From assembly GCF_014197435.1 (NCBI RefSeq), contig NZ_JACIFP010000003.1, forward strand, positions 1-64,000: a DNA stretch of 64,000 bases. Direction: 5' to 3'. The notes below the pieces were generated by a model. That model had not been told where the DNA came from. It saw nothing but the letters and a program-made list of their open reading frames with translations, and ran no database searches. The DNA comes from Gordonia humi (GTDB taxonomy: Bacteria > Actinomycetota > Actinomycetes > Mycobacteriales > Mycobacteriaceae). A program made the translations under genes and the position numbers. Of the stretch, positions 16,740-39,900 are shown piece after piece (position 1 is the stretch's first letter; every line of letters starts with the position of its first letter).

Positions 16740-16744
16740 GGTAT

Positions 16745-18197: not shown

Positions 18198-18202
18198 GGT
18201 AT

Positions 18203-22120: not shown

Positions 22121-22169
22121 TGAAGCGCCCTGGGTTTAGTTCCGAGTCTGATGAAGGAGAATCGGAAAC

Positions 22170-22484: not shown

Positions 22485-22900
22485 TCGCGTTCATCGACAC
22501 GTACCGCGATCAGTTCGGGGTCGAGGCCATCTGCCGGGTACTCCAGACGGCAGATTGTGGGTTTCTCACCTCCCGTGGCTATCGAGCCGCGAAATCCCGT
22601 CCGGCCAGCACTCGAGCGGTGCGTGATCGAATGCTGATCGAGGACATGCAGCGGATTCACGCCGAGAACTACAGCGTGTACGGATACCGCAAGATGCATC
22701 ACGCGATGCGCCGAGCCGGCTGGGACATCGGTCGAGATCAGACCGCCAGGCTAATGAAAACCGCTGGCCTGCACGGAGTTCGTCGGGGCCGCACGCCTAT
22801 GACTACCACCCGAGCTGAGTCGCCCGATGGCCGCCCGGATCTGGTCAAGCGCGAGTTCGCCGCGGCCGGTCCGAACCGCTTGTGGGTCGCCGACATCACC
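22481..22900 (+). pseudogene. IS3-family OrfB 5' part (element b)
   Basis: 140 residues of OrfB, ending NRLWVADIT, the strand carrying the first catalytic Asp. It is cut immediately afterwards by the IS110 insertion, which supplies a TAA. The continuation is at 24474. Confidence 0.85.
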
Positions 22901-24473
22901 TAATGGGAGTGTCGGGTCCGCACATCTGGGCGGGACGACATGGCGGCTGGTGGGTGGTCACTGAGATTTTACCGATTCCGGTGCATGGTTGAACCGAGCT
23001 GCTGGTGGGTGATTACTGACAGTTGAGTTCACGGATGCGTGCCGAGGTCTGAACGTAGACGGTGACCCCATCAGTCCGCCGCGGAGGTGCGTGTTCGGCT
23101 TGTGAGATGCCGCACCGAGAGTGCCGCCATTAGGTCGCCGCCCGCTCTCCGAGCTCATCGATTCGCCGGACCTACTGGCGGATGGCATCGGAAAGGATGT
23201 GCTCGATGATCACGTGCGGTATCGACTGGGCCGAGGACCATCACGACATAGCGTTGATGGACGACTCCGGCTTCATCATTGAACGTCGGCGAATCACTCA
23301 TGACCCCAACGGTTTTGCCGAACTCCTGGCGATGGTCGCTGACCATGGCGGCACTGCGGACGACGTGCCGATCGCGATCGAGACCGATAAGAATCTTCTG
23401 GTTGTGGCGTTGGCTGGCGCGGGTTTCACCGTGTATCCGATCAATCCGCGGGCCGTCGCGCGGTACCGCGAACGCCACGGACAGGCGGGCAACAAGTCCG
23501 ATTCGCGTGATGCCGCGGTGCTCGCCGACATCGTGCGCACTGACCGTCACCAGCATCGTCGGCTGCCAGCCAACAGCGAGCAGCAGCAGGCGATCAAGGC
23601 GCTGGCGCGTCAGCATCAGGAAGCGATCTGGGCGCAGAATCAGACGATCAGTCGGCTGCGTTCGGTGCTACTGGAGTTCTATCCTCAAGCGTTGCAAGCA
23701 TTTCCGAAGCTCAAGCACCGAGCGGCGATGGAGGTTCTTTCAATAGCGCCCACCCCCACGGATGCGGCGAAGCTGACTCGCCCGCGGATCAGCAACGCGC
23801 TCAAAAGGGTTGGCCGACGCAACGACCCCGCCCTGGTAACCCAGATCCATAGCGATCTGCACGCCCCCGGGCTGCGGCAGCCGGATGCTGTGGAGGTGGC
23901 CTTAGGTCATACCGTAGCCAGTCTGGTCGCGATCATCGTGGCGATGCTCGATGCCGTCGCAGTGCTCGAGCGTGAACTCGTCACCGCATTCGCCGAGCAT
24001 CCTCAAGCGGACATCATCGACTCGGTCCCCGGCCTCGGAGGTGTTCTCGGTGCGCGTATTCTCGCCGAAATCGGCGATGACCCAAAGCGCTTCAGCTCAC
24101 CAACGGGACTGCGATCTTTCGCAGGAACAGCGCCGGTGACGATCGCGTCAGGCCGCTCGCACTACGTCAAGGCCCGCAAAGTCCGCAACAGGCGTCTGGC
24201 CGATGCCTGCCACTGGTGGGCGTTCGCAGCGCTGACATGGTCAGCGCCGGCCCGCGAGTACTACGACCATCGCCGTGCTGTCGGAGACCACCACAACGCC
24301 GCACTGCGAGCCTTGGCCAACAAGCTCCTCGGGCGCCTGTGGTGGTGCCTGCAGCACGATCAATCCTGGGACGACACTGCCGCGTGGCCGCGAGCTGCCA
24401 CACCCGCCGCCGCGTAACCCCGAACACCAACCACCACCACTGCCTACTTGACATCTGACTGGCGTGGGATGTC
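22901..24473 (+). mobile_element. IS110-family element nested in IS3 element b
   Basis: Boundaries inferred by rejoining OrfB: ...GCCGACATCACC (to 22900) continues as TATGTTCGCATC (from 24474), giving ADIT-YVRI in one frame. The insert is 1573 bp, has no clear terminal repeats, and leaves about 300 bases (22901-23205) before its transposase, where a bridge-RNA gene could lie. Confidence 0.8.
23206..24417 (+). CDS. IS110-family transposase (B)
   Basis: 403 residues from ATG 23206 (GAAAGGA eight bases before). The RuvC-like DEDD domain starts ITCGIDWAEDHHDIALMDD and continues with YPINPRAVARYRER and KSDSRDAAVLADIVRTD. The C-terminal transposase_20 domain has VPGLGGVLGARILAEIGD and FSSPTGLRSFAGTAPVTIASG with the serine. 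Full length and clearly different from transposase A at 6556. Confidence 0.92.
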   Translation: MITCGIDWAEDHHDIALMDDSGFIIERRRITHDPNGFAELLAMVADHGGTADDVPIAIETDKNLLVVALAGAGFTVYPINPRAVARYRERHGQAGNKSDSRDAAVLADIVRTDRHQHRRLPANSEQQQAIKALARQHQEAIWAQNQTISRLRSVLLEFYPQALQAFPKLKHRAAMEVLSIAPTPTDAAKLTRPRISNALKRVGRRNDPALVTQIHSDLHAPGLRQPDAVEVALGHTVASLVAIIVAMLDAVAVLERELVTAFAEHPQADIIDSVPGLGGVLGARILAEIGDDPKRFSSPTGLRSFAGTAPVTIASGRSHYVKARKVRNRRLADACHWWAFAALTWSAPAREYYDHRRAVGDHHNAALRALANKLLGRLWWCLQHDQSWDDTAAWPRAATPAAA

Positions 24474-24968
24474 TATGTTCGCATCCCGACGGGTTTCTGC
24501 TACACGGCGTTCATCACTGATGTATGCACCCGCAAGATCGTAGGCTGGGCCGTCGCGGCGACTCTGCACACGCAGTCTCTGCCGATGCAGGCCCTCGAGC
24601 AAGCACTGATCACCACGAAAGTGCACAAGACTGGCGGCGGTCTGATCCACCACAGCGACCACGGCAGTCAATACGTATCGCTGGCGTACTCCGATGCGCT
24701 CATCACCGCCGGCGTGCGCGCCTCGGTCGGGACCGTCGGCGACAGCTACGACAATGCTCTGGCAGAGACTGTCAACGGCCTCTACAAGGCCGAACTCATC
24801 CACCGTGAGCGGATCTGGCCAACGGTGACCGCGGTCGAGATTGCGACGCTGGGCTGGGTCAGCTGGTGGAACAACACGCGCCTGCACGAAGCGCTCAACT
24901 ATCGGACACCCGCCGAGGTCGAAGCGTCGTACACTCACCCCACGACGACCGCGCCCGCGACCGTCTAA
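24474..24968 (+). pseudogene. IS3-family OrfB 3' part (element b)
   Basis: 164 residues that continue OrfB after the IS110 insertion: YVRIPTGFCYTAFITDVCTRK, LIHHSDHGSQYVSLAYSD (second Asp), SYDNALAETVNGLYKAELI (Glu). With the 5' part it makes a full-length transposase, so the gene was intact before the nested insertion. Confidence 0.87.
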
Positions 24969-24998
24969 CCACGGAACTAAACCCAGGGCGCTTCAACC

Positions 24999-25271: not shown

Positions 25272-26477
25272 TCATGCAGGGACGAGCCGCACTGGAAGCG
25301 TGTTCCATGTTTGTAGTGAGTTGTTGTATCCCCGTTCCGGTGTGCCGGCCAACTCCAGGTGTTCGACCCGGTCAGCCAGGGCGGTGAGCAGGACTTCGGC
25401 CTCCAGTCGTGCGACGTGTTGACCGACACACTGGTGGAGGCCCATGCCGAAGCCGACGTGGCCGGAGGGATCGCGGCCCAGGTCGAAGTTGTTTGGTGCA
25501 TCCCATCGCCGTGGGTCACGGTTGCCCGCTCCGATCAGGAGCATCATCTTCTGGTGGGGGCCGATTGTGGTGCCGAGGAACTCGACGGGATCATCGCCGG
25601 TGGTGTGGAAGACGATCTGCAAGGGTGAGGCCCATCGCACAGCTTCATCGAATGCACGCCGCGCAAGACCCGGGTCTTTACGTAGAAGCTGCCACTGCTC
25701 TGGGTGGGTTGCGAAGGCGTGCAGAATGGCTGCGATTCCGTGCACTGTGGTGTCGATGCCCGCGGAGACGAGCGAGCGAACCACCAAAGGGGCTTGTTCC
25801 AAGGTGATTTCACCTCGGTCAGCGGCCTCCCAGATGCTCGCGCCGAATCCTCCGGGTGCGAGATTCTCGCGTCGGCACAATGTGGTGACCCACGCCGACA
25901 GTTGCGTCAGCCGCGTTGCGCTCTTCTCGAAGAGCGCGTTCTGCGGACCGAAAGCGTTGAACACGAGATCACCGTAGGCGAGTAGGTCGCGGCGTCGCTC
26001 AGGCGGCAATCCGACTGCATCGGGAAAGACCTTGAGCGGGAACGGCGCGGCCAACTCGTTCATGGCGTCGATGACTCCGCCGCGGGCCAGCACCTGGTCG
26101 ACGCTCTGTTCGGCTTCCGCGAGCCATTCGGACCGCAGGCGTCGCAGCACCCGTGTGCTGAGCACTTCGGTCAGCACACGGCGGGGTGCGTCGTGCACGG
26201 GCGGGTCGGCCTCGGTAGGTAGAGCCGGTGGTCTCCAGGGCTTTTCGACGTGGAAGTTGGCCAATCCTACGCCTGCTCCGACATGGAAGTGTTGCCAGTC
26301 GGCCAGCACCTCCCGGATGACGTCGTAGCGGCCGGTGGCGTAGACGTCCAAAGCGCTGAGGTAGACCACCGGGCCGGCCTCACGCACCCGCTGTTGCACG
26401 GGCAGGCGATCGATCAGATGCTCCTCGGCGTACGGATCGTCGTCGACGACGGGAGGAGTGAGTACGGGAGTCGTCAT
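25272..26477 (-). CDS. cytochrome P450 (CYP199-like)
   Basis: 401 residues from ATG 26477 (GGAG 6 bases before). P450 signatures in order: I-helix SAGIDTTVHG (about 235-244), ExxR as EAVR, and the heme loop GFGMGLHQCVGQHVARLE with Cys350 as the axial thiolate. The loop GxHQCVGQ-VARLE is that of CYP199-type enzymes, which hydroxylate or O-demethylate para-substituted benzoates and cinnamates (family knowledge; the match is by eye). It is the last gene of an operon directly after a reductase that carries flavin and [2Fe-2S], its natural electron donor. Soluble, bacterial class I. Substrate inferred as an aromatic or ketone-derived carboxylate. Confidence 0.9.
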   Translation of the reverse strand: MTTPVLTPPVVDDDPYAEEHLIDRLPVQQRVREAGPVVYLSALDVYATGRYDVIREVLADWQHFHVGAGVGLANFHVEKPWRPPALPTEADPPVHDAPRRVLTEVLSTRVLRRLRSEWLAEAEQSVDQVLARGGVIDAMNELAAPFPLKVFPDAVGLPPERRRDLLAYGDLVFNAFGPQNALFEKSATRLTQLSAWVTTLCRRENLAPGGFGASIWEAADRGEITLEQAPLVVRSLVSAGIDTTVHGIAAILHAFATHPEQWQLLRKDPGLARRAFDEAVRWASPLQIVFHTTGDDPVEFLGTTIGPHQKMMLLIGAGNRDPRRWDAPNNFDLGRDPSGHVGFGMGLHQCVGQHVARLEAEVLLTALADRVEHLELAGTPERGYNNSLQTWNTLPVRLVPA

Positions 26478-26501
26478 GTGGTACTCCAAAGAACGAGATT
26501 A

Positions 26502-27479
26502 TCAGGCATCGAGGGTCAGGGTTGAGGTGTGGGCCCGCGAAACGCACACAAGAATGCAGTCCCCGGCATCCCTGTCGGTCTCGCTTAACATGCTGTCGCG
26601 GTGATCTGGCCGGCCGGCGAGTACGGCGACCTCGCATGTCCCGCAGGTGCCCTGTCGACACGACGAGAGCACCCCGACTCCCGCTTGAGCCATGGCATCG
26701 AGAATGCTGGTGCCCGGTGCCACCGGGAGGTCGAGTCCACTGCGCTGCAGATGGACCACGAAAGGACGATCATCGGCGCGGCGGCCCGCGCCGTTGACAA
26801 ACCGCTCGGTGTGCAATGTGTGCGGCAGCCAATTCGCCGAGGCGCGCTCCGCTGCGTCCAGCAAACCGGCTGGGCCGCAACAGTAGACACGTGTCCCCTT
26901 CTCTATATCCCCAACCCAGTCGGCAATGTCGGGCCGGCCGAACTCGTTCTCGGGAACCAGGTCCACGTGACCCCGTGCGTCGGTGAGTTCGTCTGCAAAG
27001 GCCATCGACCGACGCCAACGCCCACCGTAGAGCAGCTTCCAGGGAATCTTCAGTCGATCAGCCTGTTGGATCATCGGCAGCAGCGGCGTGATACCGATGC
27101 CACCGGCGATGAACAGATACCGCTCGGCCGGGACCAGATGGAAGTGGTTACGCGGCCCCCCGAAACCCAATATCTGCCCCTCGGCGAGTTGAGTGTGAAT
27201 CCACTCTGACCCGCCGGAACCGGCGGTTTCGCGCAGGACAGCGATCCGATAGGTGTACGCATCCCAGCGATCACCGCACAGGGAGTACTGACGCACCAGC
27301 CCGTTCGGCAGTATCACGTCGATGTGTGAGCCCGGCGTCCACGGGGGCAGCCGCCGACCTGTCGGATCGGCGAGGGTCACCGCGACCACTCCCTCGGCGA
27401 CCACCTCGACACCGACGACCTGAATCGATGTGGCGTCGGTGTCGAGGCCCGCTCGTGCCGCCGCCACCGCAGTATTCAT
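26502..27479 (-). CDS. phthalate-dioxygenase-type FMN/[2Fe-2S] reductase
   Basis: 325 residues. Three domains in order: FMN-binding (PNGLVRQYSLCGD, near residues 59-71), NADH-binding (AGGIGITPLLPM and CCGPAGLLDAAER) and a C-terminal plant-type ferredoxin domain with C274, C279, C282 and C312 (CRQGTCGTC ... LVC). It passes electrons from NAD(P)H to an oxygenase. It sits between the BVMO and the P450 (4-base overlap with the BVMO stop; 24 bases to P450) and is the likely donor for the P450 rather than for the self-sufficient BVMO. Confidence 0.92.
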   Translation of the reverse strand: MNTAVAAARAGLDTDATSIQVVGVEVVAEGVVAVTLADPTGRRLPPWTPGSHIDVILPNGLVRQYSLCGDRWDAYTYRIAVLRETAGSGGSEWIHTQLAEGQILGFGGPRNHFHLVPAERYLFIAGGIGITPLLPMIQQADRLKIPWKLLYGGRWRRSMAFADELTDARGHVDLVPENEFGRPDIADWVGDIEKGTRVYCCGPAGLLDAAERASANWLPHTLHTERFVNGAGRRADDRPFVVHLQRSGLDLPVAPGTSILDAMAQAGVGVLSSCRQGTCGTCEVAVLAGRPDHRDSMLSETDRDAGDCILVCVSRAHTSTLTLDA

Positions 27480-29467
27480 CGGTTCTCCCGCATGGGTAGA
27501 TCGTGGAAGTCGAATGCGGTCAGGTCCGGCTTCCGGGTCAAATCGTAGAACTCATGCAAGGAGTAGGGCCACACCTGCGACGCTCGGCCATGTCGGTTCT
27601 GGTACCACGTTTCAATTGTGGCTACGCCCCACGCTCGGCGCCGGTTACCCTCGTCCACCCAGTCACAGAACTCGTCCACGGCATCTGTATGCGGCGACAT
27701 CGATGCCCGTCCCGATCGCAACAGCTCGCCGATGCACTCGACGGTGTACTCCGCCGAGCACTCGGCCATGAAAAGTGAACTGCCATTGACGACTACACCG
27801 GTGTTGGGCCCCATCAGCATGAACAGATTCGGGAAGTGAGGGACCGTGATACCGAGATATCCGCGGGCATCACCGTCCCACATCTGATGCAGGTCTTGTC
27901 CCTGCGCACCGGTGATCGTCATGGGTTCCAGGTAGTCCGACGCCCGGAAGCCGGTGGCGTAGACGATCACGTCCACTTCGTGGAGCCGCCCGTCGGCGGT
28001 GCGGATCCCGGTGGGCTCGATCGAGGCGATCCCGTCAGTGATCAGGTCCACGTGAGGTTTCTTCAACGCCGCCGCCCAGACCCCGTTGTCGCGGGTCATT
28101 CGCTTGACACCCGGCGGATAGGTCGGGGTCATTTTCTCCAGCAGGTCGGGGTCGCCGTCGAGCTGTGCGCGCAGATGCTCGATCAACTGCGCGCGCAGGT
28201 GCGCGTTGTTGGCCGACGTGGTGGCAGGGTCGGTCCAGTCGGGATCGACGTCGACGAAGGGCAGACGTCCCTCGTTGGCGAGCCAGAACTGCCAGAACCG
28301 GTACCAGCGCCCGTAATACGGGACGTGCCGTAGCAACCACTGCATCCCCTCCGGAATGTCGTTGTGGTATCCGGGTGTCGGCAGCATCCAGGGCGCGTGC
28401 CGCTGGAAGACCGACAGATGGTCGACCTGATCTGCGATCGAGGGCACGATCTGGTAGGCGCTGGCGCCGGTGCCGATGACGGCGACCCGCCGTCCGGCCA
28501 GCTCGACATTCTGGTCCCAACGGGAGGAATGAAAAGCTGTCCCGCCGAAGCTGTCCCGTCCCGGTATGTCGGGAATGTTGGGAAGGTTGAGCTGGCCGAC
28601 GGCGGTGATCACCGCGTGGAACTTCAGCTGTTGCTCGGCCCCATGCGCATCTCGGACGGTCACTGTCCAGATCTGCTCGTCGGAGTCGAAGGCCAGCGCG
28701 GTGACCTCGGTGTTGAAGCGAATATTCGGACGCAAACCGAACGCGGCCGACACGTCCTGCAGGTAGCCCTCGATTTCCGGTTGCGTCGAGAATGCCTGGG
28801 GCCAATCCGGTTTCTGCGCGAACGAATAGCTGTAGGCAAAGTTCGGGGTGTCCAGACGGCATCCGGGATAGACGTTCTCCCACCATGTTCCACCGACCTC
28901 GGCATTCTTGTCGAATACCACGTAGCTCACCGAGGCCTGGCTCAGTCGGTGCGCTGCCGCCATGCCGGAGATCCCCGCACCTATCACCGCGACGGTGAAG
29001 TCCCGGTCGGGGGCCACGTCGTCTTTGGTCCATCGGGGCGCACCGTAATCCTTGGGGATCCCGAGTTCATGGCGCAACAGCGGAAGCTGTTCATCACCGG
29101 CATCTTTGGTGATGAAGCGCACGATGTCGGCGAGCAACTCCTCCGTCGGTTGCGCGGCGGGTATCGATCCACGGTCACGGAGTTGTCTCAGTCCATCGAA
29201 AGCCAGCTCGCGGGCCCGTTCCTGAGCCCGAGGAGTCAAGCCGCCCTGCGCCGCGATCACAGCGTCCATCGGTGGGAGTGGGGGCTTGACCGACTCTTCC
29301 AAGATCGAGGGGTCGGCGTTGACGTGTGCCAATGCTGCCAGTAGAGCCGGTAATTCGGCGTGCTCGAGCGCCGCGCGCAGGAAGTCGTCGTCCTCGACGA
29401 TCGGCACGAAACTGTTGTACTGCTCTGCAGTGTCGGCCGCAGCGATCGGTGAAGCCGTGTAGGTCAT
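27476..29467 (-). CDS. Baeyer-Villiger monooxygenase, HAPMO-like
   Basis: 663 residues. An N-terminal helical extension of about 150 residues precedes FAD Rossmann fold GAGISGMAAAHR (163-174). The BVMO fingerprint FGGTAFHSSRWD spans 307-318, and the NADPH fold GTGASAYQI follows near 332. Such an extension and the phrase APRWTKDDVAPDRDFTVAVIGAG resemble 4-hydroxyacetophenone monooxygenase, an FAD/NADPH enzyme that turns aryl ketones into esters. ATG 29467 overlaps the stop of the upstream hydrolase by 4 bases and its stop overlaps the reductase start by 4. The adjacent hydrolase would split the ester or lactone product. Class is certain, substrate inferred. Confidence 0.92.
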   Translation of the reverse strand: MTYTASPIAAADTAEQYNSFVPIVEDDDFLRAALEHAELPALLAALAHVNADPSILEESVKPPLPPMDAVIAAQGGLTPRAQERARELAFDGLRQLRDRGSIPAAQPTEELLADIVRFITKDAGDEQLPLLRHELGIPKDYGAPRWTKDDVAPDRDFTVAVIGAGISGMAAAHRLSQASVSYVVFDKNAEVGGTWWENVYPGCRLDTPNFAYSYSFAQKPDWPQAFSTQPEIEGYLQDVSAAFGLRPNIRFNTEVTALAFDSDEQIWTVTVRDAHGAEQQLKFHAVITAVGQLNLPNIPDIPGRDSFGGTAFHSSRWDQNVELAGRRVAVIGTGASAYQIVPSIADQVDHLSVFQRHAPWMLPTPGYHNDIPEGMQWLLRHVPYYGRWYRFWQFWLANEGRLPFVDVDPDWTDPATTSANNAHLRAQLIEHLRAQLDGDPDLLEKMTPTYPPGVKRMTRDNGVWAAALKKPHVDLITDGIASIEPTGIRTADGRLHEVDVIVYATGFRASDYLEPMTITGAQGQDLHQMWDGDARGYLGITVPHFPNLFMLMGPNTGVVVNGSSLFMAECSAEYTVECIGELLRSGRASMSPHTDAVDEFCDWVDEGNRRRAWGVATIETWYQNRHGRASQVWPYSLHEFYDLTRKPDLTAFDFHDLPMRENR

Positions 29468-30303
29468 GCCGGGTCCTTGGTCAGATAGTCGATCACGATC
29501 TGGGCGGTCTCGACCGGCGACTCGATATTCGGTTCGTGTGCACCGTCGACCTCGAGCGCGGTGATCGCCGGGGACAGGTCGGCCAGCTTTCTCGCCCAAC
29601 CACTTTCGAGCAACACGTCGTCACGTCCCTCGATCAACAGCAGCGGGGTGGTGACCGCTGCCAGATTGTCCAGGAAGGGGTCGGCTGCCGGCGTTCTGGT
29701 CACCGATGGATTGCTGAGTCTGGGGGCGGTCATCGCCTCCCAGTGTCCCGGGATCAAGCTGTTCTCGTAGCGGGCTCGGACATGAGCGTCCATCCCGGCG
29801 GTGCTACGAACCGTCAGGCCAGTCATCTTCTCGGCGTCCTCGAGGCTGGGCGTGTAGTCGGCCAACGCGGCCACACCTTCGGGCAGACGGTACGGCCCGC
29901 CGGTACCCGAGATGCTGATGGCCTTGCTCACCGGCCACGGTTGCGCCGGGTCGGCCACGGCGCGCAGAACCACGGAACCACCGAATGAGGCACCCACGAA
30001 GTGCGCTCGCGACACCCCGAGTTCGGCACAGAAGGCGGCAAGGTGAGCCACCCGAGGCAGATACGGTGGGCGGTCGAGGAACACGACTTTATCGGTGCCG
30101 CCCCAACCGAGCAGATCCGGTGCCAGTACGTGGAACCGCTCGGCGAGCGGGGCGATCATCTCCCCCCAGCACAATTCGGCGGTACTCCCGAAACCGCCGT
30201 CATGTACCAGGACGACCGTCTCGGAACCTGACGTGCCGGCTTCCAGGTAGGTGGTGGTGAATCCGCCGGCGGTGACTGACTTCTGCTCGTAGGCGTTCCT
30301 CAT
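29464..30303 (-). CDS. alpha/beta-hydrolase (ester/lactone)
   Basis: 279 residues. The nucleophile elbow is VGASFGGS with Ser106, the oxyanion loop HDGGFGS, the Asp in IEGRDDVLLE and His in DGAHEPNIE: a complete triad. It overlaps the BVMO by 4 bases and precedes it, matching the pairing in ketone degradation where a hydrolase opens the ester or lactone. Relatives include meta-cleavage product hydrolases (MhpC-like), so a C-C hydrolase is an alternative. 60 bases separate it from the SDR upstream. Confidence 0.9.
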   Translation of the reverse strand: MRNAYEQKSVTAGGFTTTYLEAGTSGSETVVLVHDGGFGSTAELCWGEMIAPLAERFHVLAPDLLGWGGTDKVVFLDRPPYLPRVAHLAAFCAELGVSRAHFVGASFGGSVVLRAVADPAQPWPVSKAISISGTGGPYRLPEGVAALADYTPSLEDAEKMTGLTVRSTAGMDAHVRARYENSLIPGHWEAMTAPRLSNPSVTRTPAADPFLDNLAAVTTPLLLIEGRDDVLLESGWARKLADLSPAITALEVDGAHEPNIESPVETAQIVIDYLTKDPA

Positions 30304-30363
30304 GTGTCATCTCTTTCTTCGCTGTGCTCGCACCCGGAACCCAGGGCCGAGCTGAGTTGTTGT

Positions 30364-31053
30364 TCAGTTCTTGACCGAGCCGCCGTCGACACACAGCGTC
30401 TGCCCGGTGACGAAGGCTGCTTGGTCGGACAGCAGGAACAGCACCGGACCGACTATGTCGTCGGGGTGGGCACGCCTCTTGAGCGCTCGGGTGGCGATGT
30501 TCGCCTCCTCGGTGTGCGCCATCCGCGCGATCATCGGTGTGGCGGTGATCCCTGGGCTGATGACGTTGACAGTGATCTCGTCCTCACCCAGTTCCTCGGC
30601 GAGGCAGCGCGCGAATCCGATGACGCCGGCCTTGGACGCGACGTAGGCGAAGAGATTGCGCGACCCTTTGAAGACCGTCCCGGAGGCGAACAGCACGATC
30701 CGGCCTCCTCGCGGCATGAGCGGGACAACAGCCTGGGCCAGCGCGATCGTTCCCTCGAGATTGGTGCGCAGGATCTGTTCCCACTCGGCTCGTTCGGTCT
30801 GCCGGAAGGACGACCACTGCCCCCTCGCGGCGCAATGGACGAGGTTGTCCACCGGGTGTCCGCCGAGTTCGGCGACGATTGAGTCGATGCCTTCGGGGCT
30901 GCCCAGATCGGCACGAATGTACTGCGCAGCACCGTGCCGTTCGGGAGGTGCGGCGATGTCGACGATGATGACTCGGTGTCCTTCGGCGATCAGCGCTGCG
31001 GCCACTGCTGCGCCGATACCGCTGGCACCACCGGTGACAACAGATGTGGTCAT
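30364..31053 (-). CDS. short-chain dehydrogenase/reductase (SDR 1)
   Basis: 229 residues. Classical SDR: TGGASGIG cofactor motif near the N-terminus, an aromatic-rich NLVHCAA strand, the catalytic YVASK, and PGIT near residue 170. It ends CVDGG. It overlaps the upstream hydrolase by 4 bases (ATGA). It probably oxidises an alcohol to the ketone that the BVMO attacks, or reduces the reverse, with NAD(P). Substrate not visible. Confidence 0.9.
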   Translation of the reverse strand: MTTSVVTGGASGIGAAVAAALIAEGHRVIIVDIAAPPERHGAAQYIRADLGSPEGIDSIVAELGGHPVDNLVHCAARGQWSSFRQTERAEWEQILRTNLEGTIALAQAVVPLMPRGGRIVLFASGTVFKGSRNLFAYVASKAGVIGFARCLAEELGEDEITVNVISPGITATPMIARMAHTEEANIATRALKRRAHPDDIVGPVLFLLSDQAAFVTGQTLCVDGGSVKN

Positions 31054-31835
31054 CGCCCTACCGGCTCTCGGGAGGTGTCGTCGACTCGTGCGATGAACTC
31101 GGTGACCACGTCGTTGAACGACGAAGGATTCTCGACACACGACAGGTGGCCGGCCGCGGGGATGGATGCCAGGGTCGACCCGGCGACGTTGTCGAGGATT
31201 GTCTGGGTTCGTTCCATCGGTACCTTCAGGTCGGAGTCTCCGATCACCACTAACGTCGGGCTGGTGATGGCGGCCAGGTCGGCGGTCACGTCGGCGAAGA
31301 ATGTCGCCTTGGCCGAAGCCAGGTAGGCGGCGGCGGACATACTGCCGATCGCCGAGACCAGATTCGTGTAGTCGGCATCGTCGACTCGGCGGGTGAGCGT
31401 CTCCTCGAGGTACCTGGTTGCGTACGCCGCCATCCCGGTGGCCTCTATCGCGGTGGACGCCGACTGCACCCTGTCCGCGGCAGCCTCCCGGGGCAGGCGG
31501 GCAAAGGTGTTCGCGGCAATCACACTGCTGACATTGCCCGGATGTGTCGCCGCATAGGCGAGCGCTTGGATGCCGCCCATCGACAGTCCGACCAGATGTA
31601 CCGGACCACACGTGCTCACGAGCCGGTGCAGATCGTCGACCCAGCCGCCGACGGTGACCGTTCCGGTGAGTGGGGTGCGGCCGTGTCCGTTGCTGTCGGG
31701 TGCGACGACGTGGTGGTTGTGCTCCAGGTGTGCCACCTGGTGGCGCCAGAGGCGACTGTCGGTTCCGAGGCTGTGCAGCAACACCACCGTCGAACGACGG
31801 TCTGCAGCGACCGATACGGTCGGTTGTGCGGTCAT
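31050..31835 (-). CDS. alpha/beta-hydrolase, 3-oxoadipate enol-lactonase-like
   Basis: 261 residues from ATG 31835 (GGAA upstream). A GTG at 31886 that overlaps the tautomerase stop (GTGA) is an alternative start. The domain has HSLGTDSRLW, the nucleophile GLSMGGIQ, Asp in VIGDSDLKVP and His in AAGHLSCVE. The overall layout is that of PcaD, which opens enol-lactones. Its neighbours are a 4-OT-type tautomerase and an SDR, so it likely acts on a ring-derived lactone in this pathway. Confidence 0.88.
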   Translation of the reverse strand: MTAQPTVSVAADRRSTVVLLHSLGTDSRLWRHQVAHLEHNHHVVAPDSNGHGRTPLTGTVTVGGWVDDLHRLVSTCGPVHLVGLSMGGIQALAYAATHPGNVSSVIAANTFARLPREAAADRVQSASTAIEATGMAAYATRYLEETLTRRVDDADYTNLVSAIGSMSAAAYLASAKATFFADVTADLAAITSPTLVVIGDSDLKVPMERTQTILDNVAGSTLASIPAAGHLSCVENPSSFNDVVTEFIARVDDTSREPVGR

Positions 31836-31882
31836 GATTTCCTTCGTTGCGAGCGTGGGTGGCACGCGATGACGTGGGGCAT

Positions 31883-32074
31883 TCACTTGTTTCGGTTGGC
31901 CAGGCTCTGTCCGCCGATTCCCCAGCGTTCGGCAGGTGTCTGGTCGATCAAGACCTGGACAGACGAGGCCGTGGCATTGGTGATCGACACATACACCTCC
32001 GTGATCGATGCGATCAGCTGGTCGATCTGTTCAGCAGACAGGGGGGATGCGTGTTTGACGTTGATGATCGGCAT
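31883..32074 (-). CDS. 4-oxalocrotonate tautomerase family protein
   Basis: 63 residues: the catalytic Pro1 after the initiator Met (MPIINVKHASPLSAEQ), typical of the small beta-alpha-beta tautomerase monomers that form hexamers. It has the RWGIGG-type C-terminal turn. These convert enol to keto forms in catabolism. 2 bases separate it from the MFS stop upstream; it overlaps the possible GTG start of the next gene. Confidence 0.87.
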   Translation of the reverse strand: MPIINVKHASPLSAEQIDQLIASITEVYVSITNATASSVQVLIDQTPAERWGIGGQSLANRNK

Positions 32075-32076
32075 GA

Positions 32077-33507
32077 TTAGGTCGCCTTCTCTGTGTGCTG
32101 GACTTCCGGTGCAATCCGGGGCCTATGTGCGGATTCGATTTGCGAGTGAAAGTGTTGCTCGTCGGTGTGGTGGGTGGTCGACGTGGTGCCGGCATTCTCG
32201 CCCAACCCGAGATGCTTCGTCTCACCGGCGATGAAGGCGCCCAGAACCATGACGATGGCCGCGACCGAGATACCAATGGCGAGACGGATGGTCACCACAT
32301 CCATACCAGGGGTGATGGCGGTGACGATCGCCGGCGTCACCCCTCCGATGGCGAAACCGATATTCCAACACAATCCGGTGCCGGTGGCACGGATCGATGT
32401 CGGGAATCGCTCGTTGAGAAAGATCAAGATAGGTGCCGAGGCCGCCATCATCACAATTGCAATCGCCGTTGATGCCACCGCCACCGAAATAACCTGGTCG
32501 GCACCGAGATTCGACATCCACAGATAGAGCGTCGGCAGAATAACCACACCAGGAATTCCTATTCCCAGGATGACCGAGCGACGTCCGTACCGGTCGCTGA
32601 GTACACCGCCGAGTAGCCCCCCGGCGATGACACCGATGTTGGCGATGACCAAGATGATTGCTGCCGTGGATGATTCGATCCCCAAGCCCTTGCCGTAGAA
32701 GGTGGGGAAGAAGCCGACCGTCAGATAATAGGTGGTGGCACCACCGGCGGCGATCGCGATGTTCACGAATGTGCGTCCGCGATTGGCGCGACCGAAGATC
32801 TCGGCGAGAGGCGAGGACTTCGCTGCGGCCCCGGAAACCTGCACGGCACCTTGCCACAGCGGTGATTCCTCGGTGTGCCGATACACGAAGAAGCTGAAGG
32901 CGGCCGTGACCAAGCCGGTGAAGAACATGATCCGCCACCCGTAGAGGCTGAAATCATCGTCGGGTACCAGTGAGGTGACCAGGAAGTAGACCGCCGACGC
33001 CACCACGGCACCGGCCCCTGCCCCGCCACCGGCCACCAGCCCGGACATCAGTCCGCGATGCTCTGGGGATACGGTCTCGGTGCCAAGCGTGTGGGTGGAC
33101 GCAACAACGCCGCCGACGAATACACCCTGTGCCATACGCAGAATCAGAAACAGCAGCGGGGCGAGCACTCCCGCGACGGCGTAAGTCGGGATCGCGCCCA
33201 TCAACGCCGTCGAGACGCCGACACCGAGAACCGCATAGAGCATTGCCCGCTTCCGACCGTTGCGGTCGGCGTAACCGCCGAAAACCGCCGATCCCAATGG
33301 CCGCAGGATCAACGTGACGGCAAACGACACGTACACGAATGACAACTGCAGCATGTCGTTGCCCGAGGGCACCAGTTGCGGACCGATCGTGGTGGCGACG
33401 TAGAGGATGATCGTCAGATCGTATAAGTCCATCGCCCAACCGGTCAGTGATGCTATGCCCGCCGCGCGTACTCGCTTGCGATACTCCGCGGTGTGTTCTG
33501 TTTCCAA
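32077..33507 (-). CDS. MFS transporter (metabolite:H+ symporter type)
   Basis: About 476 residues and 12 hydrophobic helices. MFS marks: GYADRNGRKRAM loop (between helices 2 and 3), GVVAST, and the repeated DRYGRRS in the second half. Its C-terminus is His/Glu-rich and hydrophilic. AGGAGG lies five bases before TTG 33507; a GTG at 33534 is the alternative. It is the promoter-proximal gene of the catabolic operon and would take up the substrate or an acid related to it. The closest family style is the MHS group. Confidence 0.88.
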   Translation of the reverse strand: METEHTAEYRKRVRAAGIASLTGWAMDLYDLTIILYVATTIGPQLVPSGNDMLQLSFVYVSFAVTLILRPLGSAVFGGYADRNGRKRAMLYAVLGVGVSTALMGAIPTYAVAGVLAPLLFLILRMAQGVFVGGVVASTHTLGTETVSPEHRGLMSGLVAGGGAGAGAVVASAVYFLVTSLVPDDDFSLYGWRIMFFTGLVTAAFSFFVYRHTEESPLWQGAVQVSGAAAKSSPLAEIFGRANRGRTFVNIAIAAGGATTYYLTVGFFPTFYGKGLGIESSTAAIILVIANIGVIAGGLLGGVLSDRYGRRSVILGIGIPGVVILPTLYLWMSNLGADQVISVAVASTAIAIVMMAASAPILIFLNERFPTSIRATGTGLCWNIGFAIGGVTPAIVTAITPGMDVVTIRLAIGISVAAIVMVLGAFIAGETKHLGLGENAGTTSTTHHTDEQHFHSQIESAHRPRIAPEVQHTEKAT

Positions 33508-33629
33508 GGCCGCCTCCTGAGTGAGCCCCACCACACTGTGTGGCTTGGCGTGACATTACGGCCCACTTTCCCCAGTGTTCAACTATGGTTCCTTTATGCG
33601 AAACAGATTCACTAGAGAGGTGTGCCGGT

Positions 33630-34421
33630 ATGGAGAACACCGCTGATAGCCCGGGCTCCCGAACACTGTCGTCGGTCGATCGGGCGCTATCGGTGATCGA
33701 GTTGCTGGCGGAGAACAACGGCTTGACCGTCACTCAGCTCGCAAACCGCTTGGGCACTGGGAAGGCAACAGCTTTTCGACTCGCCAAGACACTGGTCGAG
33801 CGCGGATGGGCGGAGAAGGACGAGGAGCTGCGGTACCGGTTGGGGCCGAGTGCTCTGAGTCTGTCCCCCGGGGTCCAGAACGGTACCGATCTGCGTCGCC
33901 AGCTCTACCCGATCCTGCAGGAACTGCAAGATGCGACCGGCGAGACGATCCACCTCACCGTCTTGCGTGGTCGGCACATCGTCTACGTCGAGCAACTGGT
34001 CTCCCCGAAGCCGGTGCATTCGGTGAGCACACTGGGGGGTCGTTCTCCCGCCCATTGCGTGTCGCCGGGTCTGGCCCAACTCGCCCTGTTGCCCGAGGCC
34101 GCCCGCAAATGGGTGGTGTCGACGCCACTGCGCAGATACACCGAGCATTCGGTGGTGGACCCAGACGCGGTCCTCGCCGAACTGGTTCGGGTCCGCGAGC
34201 GAGGGTACGCGATTAACAAGGGCACTTTTCGAGCCGACGTGGGTGGGGTGGGTGCGGCGGTACTCGACGCACGAGGCCGCCCGCGCGCAGGATTGTCGGT
34301 GTGCATGCCGATCTTTCGTATGCAGAGCACCGACCTCGCCGAAATCGGGAATCTGTTGCGAACCAAGGCCGTCGATGCGCAGCGTCGTCTCGATCTGGGC
34401 CTTCATGTACCCGGCTGGTAG
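33630..34421 (+). CDS. IclR-family transcriptional regulator
   Basis: 263 residues. The N-terminal wHTH covers SSVDRALSVIELLAENNG, TVTQLANRLGTGKATAFRL and a wing (RYRLGPSAL); the IclR effector domain follows, with RGRHIVYVEQL and SPAHCVSPGLAQLALLPE and a C-terminal GYAINKGTFRADVGGVGAAV. GAGAGG precedes ATG 33630. It is divergent from the MFS-led operon, whose start is 122 bases away, so it likely senses the pathway substrate and controls that promoter. Confidence 0.93.
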   Translation: MENTADSPGSRTLSSVDRALSVIELLAENNGLTVTQLANRLGTGKATAFRLAKTLVERGWAEKDEELRYRLGPSALSLSPGVQNGTDLRRQLYPILQELQDATGETIHLTVLRGRHIVYVEQLVSPKPVHSVSTLGGRSPAHCVSPGLAQLALLPEAARKWVVSTPLRRYTEHSVVDPDAVLAELVRVRERGYAINKGTFRADVGGVGAAVLDARGRPRAGLSVCMPIFRMQSTDLAEIGNLLRTKAVDAQRRLDLGLHVPGW

Positions 34422-34492
34422 CAGATCAATAACGGTATCGCCCAACGGAACACCCAGGCCCCCAAGGTCATCATGGATGGTTGGCTTGTCTG

Positions 34493-35308
34493 ATGACCGA
34501 GATGCAGAGGAACAGTTCTACGAGTGACGACCACACCGGACGTTGCTATCTCATCACCGGGGCTGGTTCCGGTATCGGGCGAGCGGTGGCCCTCCGGGTC
34601 GCTGCCGCAGGCGCGGGTGTCGCCTTGGCCGACAAAGATTTTCGTGGTGCCAGCGCGGTGGCCTCCGACATCGTCGCCGCGGGTGGCACCGCAGTGGCAC
34701 TCAAGGTGGACATCAGCGACGAGGCGCAAGTACAGCAGATGATCCTCGACGCCGTCGCGGAGTTCGGGGCCCTCCACGGGGCTTTCAACAACGCGGGTAT
34801 CGCGGCAGCCGGTGACTATGCCTTCGGAACGCCGCTCACCGACATCGAGGCCACCGACTTTCGCGCGATGATCGAGGTGAATACCACCGGATTGTTCCTG
34901 TGCCTCAAGCACGAGTTGCGAGTCATGCGTCAGGCCGGCACGTCGATCGTGAACACCGCGTCGGCCGCGGGTCTCATCGGTATGCCGCAGGGAGCGCCGT
35001 ACGTCGCGTCAAAGCATGCCGCCGTCGGCCTGACCAAGGCCGCCGCCCTCGAGGCGGCCCCGCGCGATGTGCGGGTCAATTCGATCTGCCCGGGCTACAC
35101 GGAAACCCCCATGCTCCTCGCCAACGCCACCACCACGGGCAGACAACGGCGAGTGGATTCCACTCCCCTCGGCAGACTCGGCCAACCCGAGGAGATCGCG
35201 GAGATCGCGGCATGGTTGCTGTCCCCCGCGTCGTCATTCATGACCGGATCCAATATCGCTATCGACGGTGGTCTCACTGCTGGCGGATCGACCATAGGCG
35301 CGGGGTGA
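34493..35308 (+). CDS. short-chain dehydrogenase/reductase (SDR 2)
   Basis: 271 residues. ITGAGSGIGRAVALR is the cofactor motif near residue 21; NNAGIA, then catalytic YVASK, then PGYTETPM follow. C-terminal region ends with the usual GSNIAIDGGLTAGG. It follows the IclR gene by 71 bases on the same strand, facing away from the main operon. It probably supports the same pathway through an alcohol/ketone step. Its 3' end lies 123 bases before an IS3 copy. Confidence 0.9.
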   Translation: MTEMQRNSSTSDDHTGRCYLITGAGSGIGRAVALRVAAAGAGVALADKDFRGASAVASDIVAAGGTAVALKVDISDEAQVQQMILDAVAEFGALHGAFNNAGIAAAGDYAFGTPLTDIEATDFRAMIEVNTTGLFLCLKHELRVMRQAGTSIVNTASAAGLIGMPQGAPYVASKHAAVGLTKAAALEAAPRDVRVNSICPGYTETPMLLANATTTGRQRRVDSTPLGRLGQPEEIAEIAAWLLSPASSFMTGSNIAIDGGLTAGGSTIGAG

Positions 35309-35501
35309 CGTGCCGCAGCACCCAAAAAGCGATGATCGCCTACGTTTGGCAAACTCTCCTACGTTATCGGCATTTCAAAACGGTTTTGACAGAGCGGGTT
35401 TCGAGAGCTGCTGACATAGGAGTTCGTCACGGGGGCTGGTGCACGAGTTGGTGACATCTGATCTGGCTTGCCCTGCCGGGGCGGCCTGGAAGGATGTTGT
35501 T

Positions 35502-35810
35502 GTGCCCAAGCCCTATCCCCAGGAGTTCCGCGACGACGTTGTTCGCGTCGCTCAGAATCGTGAAGACGGTGTGACGCTCGAGCAGATCGCCGCCGACTTC
35601 GGTATCCATCCCATGACGTTGCAGAAGTGGATTCGCAAGGCCGACGTGGAGGCCGGGATCAAGCCCGGCACGACCGCCGCGGCATCCCAGGAGCTCCGGG
35701 AGGCCAAGCGGCGTGTGCGACTGCTGGAGCAGGAGAACGAGGTCCTGCGCCGCGCTGCTGCCTACCTGTCCCAGGCGAATCTGCCGGGAAAAGGTGGTAC
35801 CCGCTCGTGA
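35502..35810 (+). CDS. IS3-family OrfA, element c copy 1
   Basis: 102 residues from GTG 35502. It has the OrfA helix-turn-helix (VTLEQIAADFGIHPMTLQKW, about residues 27-46) and a coiled coil (RLLEQENEVLRRAAAYLSQ). Its TGA overlaps OrfB by 4 bases (GTGA). Expression of an OrfAB fusion by a -1 frameshift is normal for the family. Confidence 0.88.
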   Translation: MPKPYPQEFRDDVVRVAQNREDGVTLEQIAADFGIHPMTLQKWIRKADVEAGIKPGTTAAASQELREAKRRVRLLEQENEVLRRAAAYLSQANLPGKGGTRS

Positions 35811-36667
35811 GCGAGCTCGCCGCTGACGGCATCCCCGTCACGGTGGCGTGCCGGGTACTCAAGATCGCTCGTCAGCCCTACTACCGATGGCTCAAGAACC
35901 CGGTCACCGATGCCGAACTCGCCGAGGCGTACCGGGCCAACGCCCTGTTCGACGCGCACCGAGAGGATCCGGAATTCGGCTACCGCTACCTGGCCGATGA
36001 AGCTGAGACCGCGGGCGAGAAGATGTGCCGGCGCACCGCCTGGCGAATCTGCTCAACCGGTGGCTGGACCAGTGCCATCAGCAAGAAGGGCCGCGGCAAG
36101 CATCGCAAGGCCGGCCCACCCGTGCACGACGATCTCGTCGAGCGAGACTTCGCCGCCGTGGGCCCGAACGAGCTGTGGCTCACCGACATCACCGAGCACT
36201 GGACGGCGGCGGGAAAGCTGTACCTGTGCGCGATCAAGGACGTCTATTCGGGCCGCATCGTCGGGTATTCGATCGACTCCAGGATGAAGTCCTGCCTGGC
36301 CGTGGCCGCACTGAACAGCGCCGTCGCCAGGCGGGGCGACGTCACAGGCTGCGTCCTACACAGCGATAGAGGATCTCAATTTCGCTCGAAGAAGATGCAG
36401 AAGGCTATCACCCGGCACGGCATGCTCGGGTCGATGGGAAGGGTCGGCGCTGCCGGGGACAACGCGGCCATGGAGAGCTTCTTTTCACTGCTACAGAACA
36501 ACGTCCTCGACCGCCGATCCTGGGCCACCAGAGACGAGCTCCGGGCCGCCATCGTGCACTGGATCGAACGCACCTACCACCGCCGCAGACGACAAGACCG
36601 CCTCGGCAGATTGACCCCCATCGAATTCGAGACAATCATCAACCACGAGGCCCCTCAGGCCGCGTGA
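35807..36667 (+). CDS. IS3-family OrfB transposase, element c copy 1
   Basis: 286 residues. The rve core is complete: NELWLTDITEHW (Asp), CVLHSDRGSQFRS (Asp), DNAAMESFFSLLQ (Glu). The N-terminal HTH_21 region has EFGYRYLADEAE. The reading frame extends upstream as an open shadow of OrfA; the GTG overlap or the frameshift is the true start. Confidence 0.9.
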   Translation: MSELAADGIPVTVACRVLKIARQPYYRWLKNPVTDAELAEAYRANALFDAHREDPEFGYRYLADEAETAGEKMCRRTAWRICSTGGWTSAISKKGRGKHRKAGPPVHDDLVERDFAAVGPNELWLTDITEHWTAAGKLYLCAIKDVYSGRIVGYSIDSRMKSCLAVAALNSAVARRGDVTGCVLHSDRGSQFRSKKMQKAITRHGMLGSMGRVGAAGDNAAMESFFSLLQNNVLDRRSWATRDELRAAIVHWIERTYHRRRRQDRLGRLTPIEFETIINHEAPQAA

Positions 36668-36921: not shown

Positions 36922-39900
36922 ATGATGAGCTTGCACAAGCTCTCCGCCGGTGACGGCTACGAATACCTGACCCGCCAAGTCGCAGCACAGGATTCGACCG
37001 AACTAGGTCAGAACACGTTGGAGTCCTACTACTCCGCCGAGGGCGAAGCACCGGGCCGCTGGCTCGGCGAAGGACTGGCCGCGTTCGACGACATTCATCG
37101 CGGTGACCTGGTCACCAGCGAGCACATGAAGGCCCTGTGGGGCGAAGGCCGCCACCCCAACGCCGATGCGATCGAGCAGCAGCTGATCGAGCACGGGCAC
37201 TCCGCGCAGTACGCGCTCGCCGCGACGAAACTCGGCACCCCGTTCAAGATCTATGAGGGCGCACCCGAGTTCACCAAGGCCGTCGCCCAGGCGTTCGCCG
37301 CCCACAACGAACAGGCCGGGAACCGGCGTAGCGACGCGATCGACCCGGACACCCGCGCCCACATCCGCACCCAGGTCGCCCACGAGATGTTCGCGAAAGA
37401 GTTCGGTCGCACCGCGATCGATGAACGCGAACTATCCGGATGGATCGCCCGCCAATCACGCAAGAAGACGACCGCCGTCGCCGGATATGACCTCACCTTC
37501 TCCCCCGTCAAGTCCGTCTCGACCCTGTGGGCAGTGGCTCCTCGGGAGGTCGCGCAGCGGATCGAAGCCGCCCACCAAGCCGCCGTGGAAAAGACCCTCG
37601 CATCTCTAGAACGCGAAGTCGCCTACACCCGTACTGGTTCCAACGGCGCCGCGCGCGTGCAGGCCCAAGGACTCATCGCGGCCGCGTTCACGCACCGCGA
37701 TTCCCGCGCCGGAGACCCCGACCTGCACACACACGTTCCGATCTCGAACAAGGTGCATTACCAAGGCGACGACAAGATCTGGCGGTGGGGCGCACTCGAC
37801 GGAAAGCCGCTGCACCGTCTCGCGGTCGCGGCCTCTGAGGAGTACAACACTCGTCTGGAAGCGGAGATTATCGCCGCGTTCCCGCAGGCCCGTTTCGCCG
37901 ACCGCGACCCCGGTGTGCGGGGTAAGCGACCGGTCCGCGAGCTTGTCGGCGTCTCACCAGATCTGATGAACCGATGGTCCGCGCGTACCCGCGCGATCGA
38001 GGACCGCACCGCGCAGCTGATCGGCACGTTCCAGTCCGAACACGGCCGTGAGCCGACCGCCGTCGAGCACATTGCGCTACGTCAGCAGGCCAACCTCGAC
38101 ACCCGCGAAGCCAAACACGAACCCCGCTCGCTGGCCGATCAGCGCGCCACCTGGCACGCGCAGGCACTCGATCAACTCGGCAGCCCCGCCGCACTGCACG
38201 CGATGATCTCGGCAGGGTTGGGCCGCACCACAGACGAGATCTCGCCCGAGTTGGCCACCCAGATGCGTCGCCTGCGCGGGCACCTGACACTGACGATGAA
38301 CCCGGTCGAGGCCGCACGGCTGTGCGCCAACAATGACGAGATTCGCCGCCGGGCGCTCGACCATATCCGCGCCTACGGTCCGCATGTGGCGGGACTGGTC
38401 GACGCCGAAGCTCGCGCCTACGGACAGATCGCCATCGACACGATCAGCGCTACCCGCTCGGTATGGAAGGCCAGCCACGTCCGCGCCGAAGCCATGCGCC
38501 AAGCCCGCATCCTCGGTATCGACCCGGCCATGATTACCGCGGTAGCCGACCACATCACCACCGCAGCGCTTGATGAACACAGCGTGCAGCTGACCAACAG
38601 CCGCACCCGATCAGACCTCGGTGAACCCGCCATGTTGCGCGATGCCGACGGCGCATCGGTATTCACCGAACGTGGCCTCGATGACTACACCAGCCCGGCC
38701 GTGCTGGCCGCAGAACGGCGCATCGTCGATGCCGCGAGCGATCACCACGGGCAGCGGATCGATGGTGTGCACGTCGACATCGCGTTGCTGGAACAGGAAG
38801 CGAACACGTTCGCGCTCAACGCCGGACAGGCCGAACTCGTCCGCCAGTTCGCCACCAAAGGGGTCCGCTTCCACCTCGCGTTGGCCCCGGCCGGCACCGG
38901 GAAAACATCGGCGATGTCGGCGTTCTCGAACGCCTGGACCTCGGCCGGGGGCACCGTCATCGGGTTGGCACCGACCGCCGACGCCGCACAAGTACTCGCC
39001 GCCGATATCGGCCGCCAGACCGACACTCTCGACAAGTACGCGCACATCGTGCGCGCACTCGATGCCGCCGGAGACGACGAGAACGAGCGCGCCCGCATCC
39101 TCGAATCCGCACCGGAATGGTTCACCACCATCGGCCCGGGAACGGTCATCCTCATCGACGAAGTCGGCATGGCATCGACCTGCACCCTCGACCCCGTCGT
39201 GCACCACGCACTCGCAGCCGGTGCCGACATCAAAGCCGTAGGAGATGACCAGCAGCTCGCCTCCGTTGCGGCCGGAGGTGTCCTGCGCGATGTCGCCGAA
39301 CTCGGCGACACCCTCACCCTGCACGAGGTGATGCGGTTCGCCGACCCCACCGAAGGCAAAGCGTCCTTGGCGTTGCGGGAGGGCAACGATGAGGCGATCG
39401 GCTACTACATCGACCACCAACGCGTGCACGTCACCGCCGACACCGTTGCAGCCGAGGCCGCCTACACCGCGTGGCGCACAGACATACAAGCCGGGCACGC
39501 CTCGGTGCTGTTGGCCCCCACCGGTGACACCGTCCGCGCCCTGAACCAGCGTGCCCGCGCCGACCGGCTGGCCGATACCCCGCCGACCTTGCGCGACAAA
39601 CTCGCCGGACGTACCCGCGAACTGACTCTCGCTGACGGTCTCGCCGCGAGTGTCGGTGACACCATCCGCACCCGCCGCAACGATCGCCGCCTCCGCTTGT
39701 CCTCGACTGATTTCGTGCGCAACGGCTACCGGTGGACGATCGAGAAAGTCGGTACAGATGGCACCCTGACCGTCCGGCATGAACGCTCGAACGCGCGCAT
39801 CATTTTGCCCGCCGACTACGTCGCCGAGCACTGCGAACTCGGCTACGCCGGCACTATCCACTCCGCGCAAGGCATGACCGTCGGATCACGCGGGAAGCAG

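Follow-up and report, generated by a model that had tools for sequence, protein, structure and literature searches.

Which compound would a bacterium degrade with a gene set that joins a cytochrome P450 to a Baeyer-Villiger monooxygenase (BVMO), and do these genes belong together? This question is raised by a locus in Gordonia humi, at positions 25,272 to 35,308 of a 64,000-nucleotide stretch of DNA that we call the window (RefSeq assembly GCF_014197435.1, contig NZ_JACIFP010000003.1). The minus strand (25272-33507) carries eight genes in a head-to-tail arrangement, in the order major facilitator superfamily (MFS) protein, tautomerase, PcaD-like hydrolase, short-chain dehydrogenase 1 (SDR1), alpha/beta hydrolase, BVMO, flavin mononucleotide (FMN)-type/[2Fe-2S] reductase, and P450. 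Divergent from them on the plus strand (33630-35308) are genes for an IclR-family regulator and then a second short-chain dehydrogenase (SDR2). This agrees with the first-pass annotation, made from the sequence alone, which had described eight co-linear genes of these families divergent from IclR; none of the ten genes contains an internal stop. We found that the ten genes form a sharply bounded, recurring unit with no assigned substrate that we could find. New relative to the first-pass annotation are the assignment of the P450 to the CYP199 family, the recurrence of the unit in other actinobacteria, and its apparent mobility.

A rare ten-gene unit with a conserved gene order

Loci were collected by way of the BVMO, with a scan of contigs giving 14 loci and 301 genomes of the family giving further ones. 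The ten proteins were compared across loci by tblastn, with one plasmid locus (L062) read from its annotation. The same gene order was found in all eight loci that have a BVMO at least 68% identical to that of the window and whose surroundings were examined. Besides the window, which served as the reference, these are in Pseudonocardia kunmingensis (L009), Nocardia australiensis (L010), Prescottella defluvii (L014), Prescottella agglutinans (L015), genomes G153 (L043) and G222 (L044), and plasmid p_4-4_A of Rhodococcus pyridinivorans 4-4 (L062), which is typed as conjugative. The BVMO of L015 lies in two reading frames (at about position 11050), either naturally or through a sequencing error. 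SDR2 adjoins the other genes in seven of the eight loci; its best match in L014 is a 34% identical SDR some 13 kilobases (kb) away. Identity to the window proteins is 68-74% for the P450, 68-71% for the BVMO, and 70-75% for SDR1 and the hydrolase encoded next to the BVMO (the BVMO-side hydrolase); the PcaD-like protein and the tautomerase reach only 49-60%. The earlier description of the locus as a catabolic operon that includes a regulator and an importer is supported. No flanking open reading frame (ORF) of L009, L010, L014 or L015 matched another flank at E 1e-20, in a comparison of these four loci that used ORFs of at least 110 amino acids (aa) picked by length and may therefore have missed genes.

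The ten-gene unit is rare. Five of the 301 family genomes carry a BVMO of this type (at least 68% identical), and 276 have some BVMO-like match. Among 394 genomes of the class, only the window BVMO reached that level, with one more match at 51%. Within Gordonia the P450 that ranks next shows 60% identity, and all nine other genomes among the matches listed carry a serine at position 87, the residue discussed below; for these reasons we place the operon P450 in the host alone, one of 59 genomes of the genus. The host chromosome encodes another P450 (4613570-4614757) that is 45% identical to that of the operon.

The P450s of L010 and L015, from different genera, are 95% identical, suggesting horizontal transfer of the operon between genera. 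That the operon is mobile is also supported by its sequence context, namely the copy on the conjugative-typed Rhodococcus plasmid and the location of the window copy between insertion sequence (IS) elements on a contig with a TrwC relaxase gene. A near-identity DNA search of plasmids gave no record covering 80% of the operon (the best was a 5% stretch at 72%), and a protein-level plasmid search gave one record, among 61, with a BVMO 60-80% identical.

The operon was not seen at 20 loci with more distant BVMOs (37-56% identical), of which ten span only 1.5 kb of flank and L016 about 1 kb. L042 (BVMO 51% identical, about 1.5 kb of flank) had no relative of the tautomerase, the PcaD-like protein or the BVMO-side hydrolase. 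In three of the ten short loci (L029, L032, L036) a 38-41% identical relative of the BVMO-side hydrolase adjoins the BVMO, which makes this hydrolase a candidate for the enzyme that follows the BVMO. The ORFs scanned around distant BVMOs (seven in L011, ten in L012, three in L013) encode ABC importers, SDRs, a MarR regulator, an amidase, and others. Sphingobium locus L013 has consecutive genes for a BVMO, an SDR, an alpha/beta hydrolase of another kind, and an aldehyde dehydrogenase; it alone among L011-L013 fits a ketone-degrading logic, and it does not indicate a substrate.

We found no paper on the operon among the titles listed in searches of openly licensed PMC papers, and so nothing contrary to the earlier statement that this combination is not a described pathway. 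BVMO gene clusters of R. opacus 1CP are listed in PMC13101518; no tie between them and this operon was established. R. pyridinivorans 4-4, the host of the operon plasmid, was isolated on coumarin as the only carbon source (PMC9138218). The main text of that paper contains no occurrence of "P450", "Baeyer-Villiger" or "monooxygenase", and we conclude nothing from the coumarin isolation.

The P450 belongs to a CYP199 clade with an altered substrate-binding site

Membership in a CYP family requires more than 40% identity to named members. The operon P450 is 58.1% identical to PbdA, a 4-methoxybenzoate demethylase, 52.3% to CYP199A2 and 50.5% to CYP199A4, which in this order are its best solved matches (PbdA, 9g9q, E 5e-155), and it thus falls within CYP199. 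In PbdA, residues Arg84, Ser87 and Ser237 hold the carboxylate of the substrate (Wolf et al., PMC11530827). The operon P450 keeps Arg84 and Ser237 of this benzoate O-demethylase set and has Ala in place of Ser87, together with Pro89, Thr90, Leu288, Val291 and His293. Our numbering follows PbdA with Arg84 set at WRPPS; by this count Phe 173 and Phe 176 of PMC11530827 fall elsewhere, and we do not use numbers for that segment.

Residues were counted by alignment in the best 120 of 3796 matches at E 1e-100 or better, the window's own included; the counts that follow refer to these 120. Ala87 occurs in 28, all with Pro89, Thr90 and His293; in this group position 288 is Leu in 25 and Phe in three, and position 291 is Val in 25 and Trp in three. 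The remaining 92 all have Ser87, Val288, Phe291 and Arg293; 91 have Leu90, and position 89 is Leu in 83 and Val in nine. All 120 share Arg84, Arg236, Ser237, Ala241 and Thr245. In a FastTree phylogeny of 140 sequences, the 34 Ala87 tips (the 28 matches and six loci, some being the same protein) were monophyletic with a support of 1.0.

As a control we examined nine of ten Ser87-type loci; the tenth, G670, lies at a contig end, and L066 spans only 3 kb on one side. All nine contain a reductase, a P450, and a nearby IclR gene, and at E 1e-3 none has a relative of the operon tautomerase or of either the PcaD-like or the BVMO-side hydrolase. Distant SDRs (30-34% identical) occur in four of these loci, and in one a 31% identical BVMO lies about 7 kb away. 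In the loci examined, Ala87 goes with the BVMO operon (8/8) and Ser87 with the stand-alone set (9/9). For the plasmid locus L062, annotation and an identity of 71% served to recognise the P450, and the residue at position 87 was read from the match P0124, whose contig is equally long. Eight of the 28 Ala87 matches have a longest contig of the same length as that of a listed BVMO match, partly in the same loci. The operon resembles PbdAB of Rhodococcus RHA1 in having a reductase/P450 gene pair with a 58% identical CYP199 enzyme (PMC11530827), and the nine Ser87-type loci in the IclR gene near this pair, but its P450 has Ala for Ser87 plus five linked changes and sits in a BVMO operon.

The S87A variant of PbdA gives an indication of what this change might do. 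In PMC11530827, its binding of 4-methoxybenzoate is weakened from 3.8 to 50 µM, its binding of 4-methoxyacetophenone is tightened from 37 to 14 µM, it turns over 4-methoxybenzaldehyde, and about 30% of the activity on 4-methoxybenzoate is left (Table 3). Among the three ligand residues, loss of Ser87 has the largest cost in affinity according to the same source. By analogy, the active-site change in the Ala87 clade speaks for a P450 substrate other than a plain benzoate, and we predict that members of the clade favor neutral carbonyl compounds, with benzoates second. The PbdA clamp mutants (84, 87, 237) described in PMC11530827 have no turnover of 4-methoxyacetophenone; the natural set of changes at 87, 89, 90, 288, 291 and 293 may show what is needed further. 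Lignin streams are one reason for interest in demethylases that act on ketones and in BVMO routes.

Family assignments of the other proteins

Type I BVMOs have two GxGxxG-type motifs with an FxGxxxHxxxW[PD] fingerprint between them, and those resembling 4-hydroxyacetophenone monooxygenase (HAPMO) carry an N-terminal extension of about 150 residues. In the operon BVMO the GxGxxG-type motifs are at residues 163 and 332 and the fingerprint is at 307. With its first Rossmann motif at residue 163, the operon BVMO is long and has such an extension, and in this one respect it is HAPMO-like as designated earlier. Its best solved match is cyclohexanone monooxygenase. The label 4-hydroxyacetophenone monooxygenase is a jgi annotation on more distant relatives among those listed, at most 61% identical. 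The reductase matches 2pia (E 4.2e-57) and 6kbh, a P450 with a fused reductase (E 1.3e-77), in line with a reductase of the phthalate-dioxygenase-reductase type that serves as partner of the P450.

The PcaD-like hydrolase scores 145.1 bits with TIGR02427, below the curated cut-off of 255.85 for PcaD 3-oxoadipate enol-lactonase. The tautomerase falls in the 4-oxalocrotonate tautomerase family (PF01361, 50.7 bits, cut-off 22), and all five aligned sequences start with MP. For the MFS protein the best model is TIGR00883 (metabolite/H+ symporter), at 213 bits under a cut-off of 443. SDR2 has sub-threshold matches to 4-hydroxycyclohexanecarboxylate dehydrogenases among 223 mostly generic SDR models. 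A family scan gave no ring-cleaving dioxygenase among the ten conserved genes. The PF04444 dioxygenase family is present in all of five operon-carrying genomes scanned; this is uninformative because catechol dioxygenases also belong to PF04444.

A proposed ketone pathway

We consider it probable that the ten genes are a self-contained, mobile catabolic operon that works by a general mechanism of ketone oxidation by a BVMO followed by hydrolysis, a judgment that leaves the substrate free. The MFS protein would import a polar precursor, and the IclR regulator, acting on a 17-base pair (bp) palindrome, would control transcription in both directions. The ketone may be formed by SDR1 (and SDR2) through oxidation of a secondary alcohol. 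The CYP199 P450 and its reductase would oxidise a para substituent, by O-dealkylation or hydroxylation, on a substrate held through a neutral carbonyl or hydroxyl and not by the full carboxylate clamp. Insertion of oxygen beside the carbonyl by the BVMO would yield an ester or lactone for cleavage by one or both alpha/beta hydrolases, and the tautomerase could act on a released enol or enone.

The substrate is most likely a para-substituted cyclic or aryl ketone, or its alcohol or methyl ether precursor, degraded by an inducible pathway. Within this class a 4-alkoxyphenyl ketone is a tentative choice; a ketone of the p-menthane or another alicyclic type, its ring opened by way of a lactone, is one as well, and we judge the two equally likely. 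Somewhat more doubtful is the idea that a CYP199 lineage gave up part of its carboxylate clamp for a neutral ketone or alcohol and entered a new mobile pathway with a BVMO, an enol-lactonase-like hydrolase, a tautomerase, and no ring-cleaving dioxygenase. The operon is a new variant of a known ketone-degrading logic and not a new kind of system.

Several points weigh against the proposed pathway. The BVMO gives no substrate class, since its best solved match and the database label on its relatives (annotation only) point to different ketones. The models that match the importer best describe carriers of charged metabolites (TIGR00883, ProP, TcuC, a shikimate transporter), and a neutral ketone would need no such carrier. 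Invariant Arg84, Arg236 and Ser237 in all 28 Ala87 P450s mean that some grip on a carboxylate remains, and gene neighbors were seen for only a minority of these 28. PbdA and its tested variants bind 4-methoxyacetophenone without turnover, and CYP199A4 turns it over at only 0.25% of the benzoate rate (both PMC11530827). The choice of hydrolase after the BVMO and the role of the tautomerase are guesses.

Alternative substrates and origins

An alternative that overlaps the general mechanism, and that we hold possible without favoring it, is the opening of an alicyclic or terpenoid ring. Here the P450 would hydroxylate a p-menthane-like or substituted cyclohexane ring, an SDR would form the ketone or enone, the BVMO an (enol-)lactone that the PcaD-like enzyme opens, the tautomerase would convert the enol, and SDR2 would oxidise the product. 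Every gene thus gets a use. A BVMO could turn an enone into an enol-lactone, and this route gains weight because the tautomerase and the PcaD-like enzyme, found in all eight loci, fit such an enol or enol-lactone. The lack of a ring-cleaving dioxygenase in the ten genes, the match to cyclohexanone monooxygenase, and the sub-threshold matches of SDR2 also favor it. The camphor, cineole and cyclohexanone pathways share the logic of a P450 or dehydrogenase, a BVMO and a lactone hydrolase, but their P450 families differ and we know of no tautomerase in them. Two observations argue against an alicyclic substrate: the operon P450 keeps the Phe-Asn-Ala-Phe segment and Ala241/Thr245, and the characterized CYP199 enzymes in PMC11530827 take flat para-substituted benzoates.

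It is unlikely, in our estimate, that the P450 substrate is still a carboxylate of larger or altered shape, such as an aryl-alkanoate or cyclohexane carboxylate, held by Arg84, Arg236 and Ser237 and brought in as the acid by the importer. The invariance of these residues in the Ala87 group, the kinship of the importer to charged-metabolite carriers and the activity left in PbdA S87A fit this idea. On the other hand, the ligand whose loss costs PbdA most is the one fixed as Ala in the clade, and positions 89, 90, 288, 291 and 293 change together with 87.

We give a similarly low chance to a classical 4-hydroxyacetophenone-type pathway preceded by demethylation, in which 4-methoxyacetophenone would pass through 4-hydroxyacetophenone and 4-hydroxyphenyl acetate to hydroquinone and acetate. 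The N-terminal extension of the BVMO, the annotation label on its more distant relatives and the relation of the P450 to a CYP199 demethylase are in its favor. In the hap pathway of Pseudomonas fluorescens ACB, a BVMO with such an extension has an esterase-type hydrolase nearby and hydroquinone ring-cleavage genes accompany both. The ten operon genes include no hydroquinone or hydroxyquinol dioxygenase and, unlike hap, include a P450 pair, a tautomerase, a PcaD-like enzyme, two SDRs and an MFS protein; the tautomerase, PcaD-like enzyme and SDR2 would be unexplained, and the failure of the PbdA variants to demethylate 4-methoxyacetophenone also counts against this route. The aryl ketones put forward in the first-pass annotation thus stay plausible as substrates, but three proteins are left over in a 4-hydroxyacetophenone-type pathway, ring cleavage is not provided for, and the importer resembles carriers of charged compounds. 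The Hpe acetovanillone pathway of Rhodococcus rhodochrous GD02 is also actinobacterial aryl ketone catabolism, but it uses a kinase and a biotin-dependent carboxylase, and the abstract names no BVMO (PMC9618137).

Finally, we find it hardly credible that the genes came together by chance or serve biosynthetic tailoring, a reading for which the IS elements flanking the window copy might speak. Chance is refuted by the gene order conserved in 8/8 loci; against the reading as a whole, no shared flanking genes were found in the four compared loci, and an importer and an IclR regulator are usual in catabolic operons.

Gene layout and genomic setting

Four of the seven minus-strand junctions are GTGA/ATGA overlaps of four bases (31883-31886, 31050-31053, 29464-29467, 27476-27479), so that the earlier phrase "most with 4-base overlaps" is just right. 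The overlap at 31883-31886 requires the GTG start of the PcaD-like gene, and the count becomes three of seven if ATG 31835 is the true start. At the other three junctions the genes are separated, by 2 bp between MFS and tautomerase, 60 bp between SDR1 and hydrolase, and 24 bp between reductase and P450. Upstream AGGAGG or GGAG sequences make TTG 33507 and ATG 26477 the likelier starts of the MFS and P450 genes (Table 1). Sites related to the palindrome GTTTCGCATAAAGGAAC occur in the same intergenic region of four aligned relatives. The pattern GTTYCNCNNNNNGGAAY, picked after aligning these regions, has one match in the window (0.12 expected), and 11 of 100 shuffles had at least one match.

Table 1. 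Features of the ten-gene operon in the window.
Feature	Coordinates	Strand	Motif or match
Cytochrome P450, CYP199 family, 401 aa from ATG 26477	25272..26477	-	heme motif FGMGLHQCVG
Phthalate-dioxygenase-reductase-type reductase, 325 aa, presumed P450 redox partner	26502..27479	-	C-terminal [2Fe-2S] motif CRQGTCGTC
Type I BVMO, 663 aa, ~150-residue N-terminal extension	27476..29467	-	GAGISG, GTGASA, fingerprint FGGTAFHSSRWD
Alpha/beta hydrolase (BVMO-side), 279 aa	29464..30303	-	GASFGG nucleophile motif; nearest solved relatives meta-cleavage-product hydrolases
SDR1, 229 aa	30364..31053	-	YxxxK present
PcaD (3-oxoadipate enol-lactonase)-like alpha/beta hydrolase, 278 aa; alternative start ATG 31835	31050..31886	-	TIGR02427 match below cut-off
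4-Oxalocrotonate-tautomerase-family protein, 63 aa	31883..32074	-	Pro beside initiator Met
MFS importer (predicted), 476 aa from TTG 33507, AGGAGG upstream	32077..33507	-	best curated model metabolite/H+ symporter
Operator-like imperfect palindrome GTTTCGCATAAAGGAAC, 17 bp, IclR/MFS intergenic region	33588..33604	-	counterparts in four aligned relatives
IclR-family regulator, 263 aa, divergent	33630..34421	+	family match
SDR2, 275 aa; alternative start ATG 34493 (271 aa)	34481..35308	+	family match

The window covers the initial 64 kb of a contig of 113,536 bases in an assembly of three contigs (5.09 Mb). We take this contig for a plasmid because it is predicted to encode a TrwC-type relaxase/helicase (36922-41724), a ParA-type ATPase and a TraG/TraD-like protein. 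On the P450 side the operon is flanked by an IS3-type element (22121-24995) whose terminal inverted repeats of 24 bp match perfectly. A gene for an IS110-type transposase (23182-24417) interrupts this element. On the SDR2 side, an IS3-type transposase pair (35439-36667) directly adjoins the operon. ORFs identical to the 346-aa transposase of this pair are found at 42744-43784, 55391-56431 and 60399-61439. Three ISL3-type transposase genes for identical 463-aa proteins lie in direct tandem, 1458 bp apart, at 15300-19607.

A second catabolic-looking set (44263-51087) comprises a TctA-type transporter, aldehyde and alcohol dehydrogenases, a CoA-transferase III and a LysR regulator. Outside the window, the contig stretches L045 and L046 (10 ORFs scanned) encode a CoA-transferase, MFS proteins, an alcohol dehydrogenase and an AMP-ligase, and an AtuA-family (acyclic terpene utilisation) protein is encoded at L045 1127-2536. 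A large MMPL-family membrane protein is encoded at 7818-10868 of the window.

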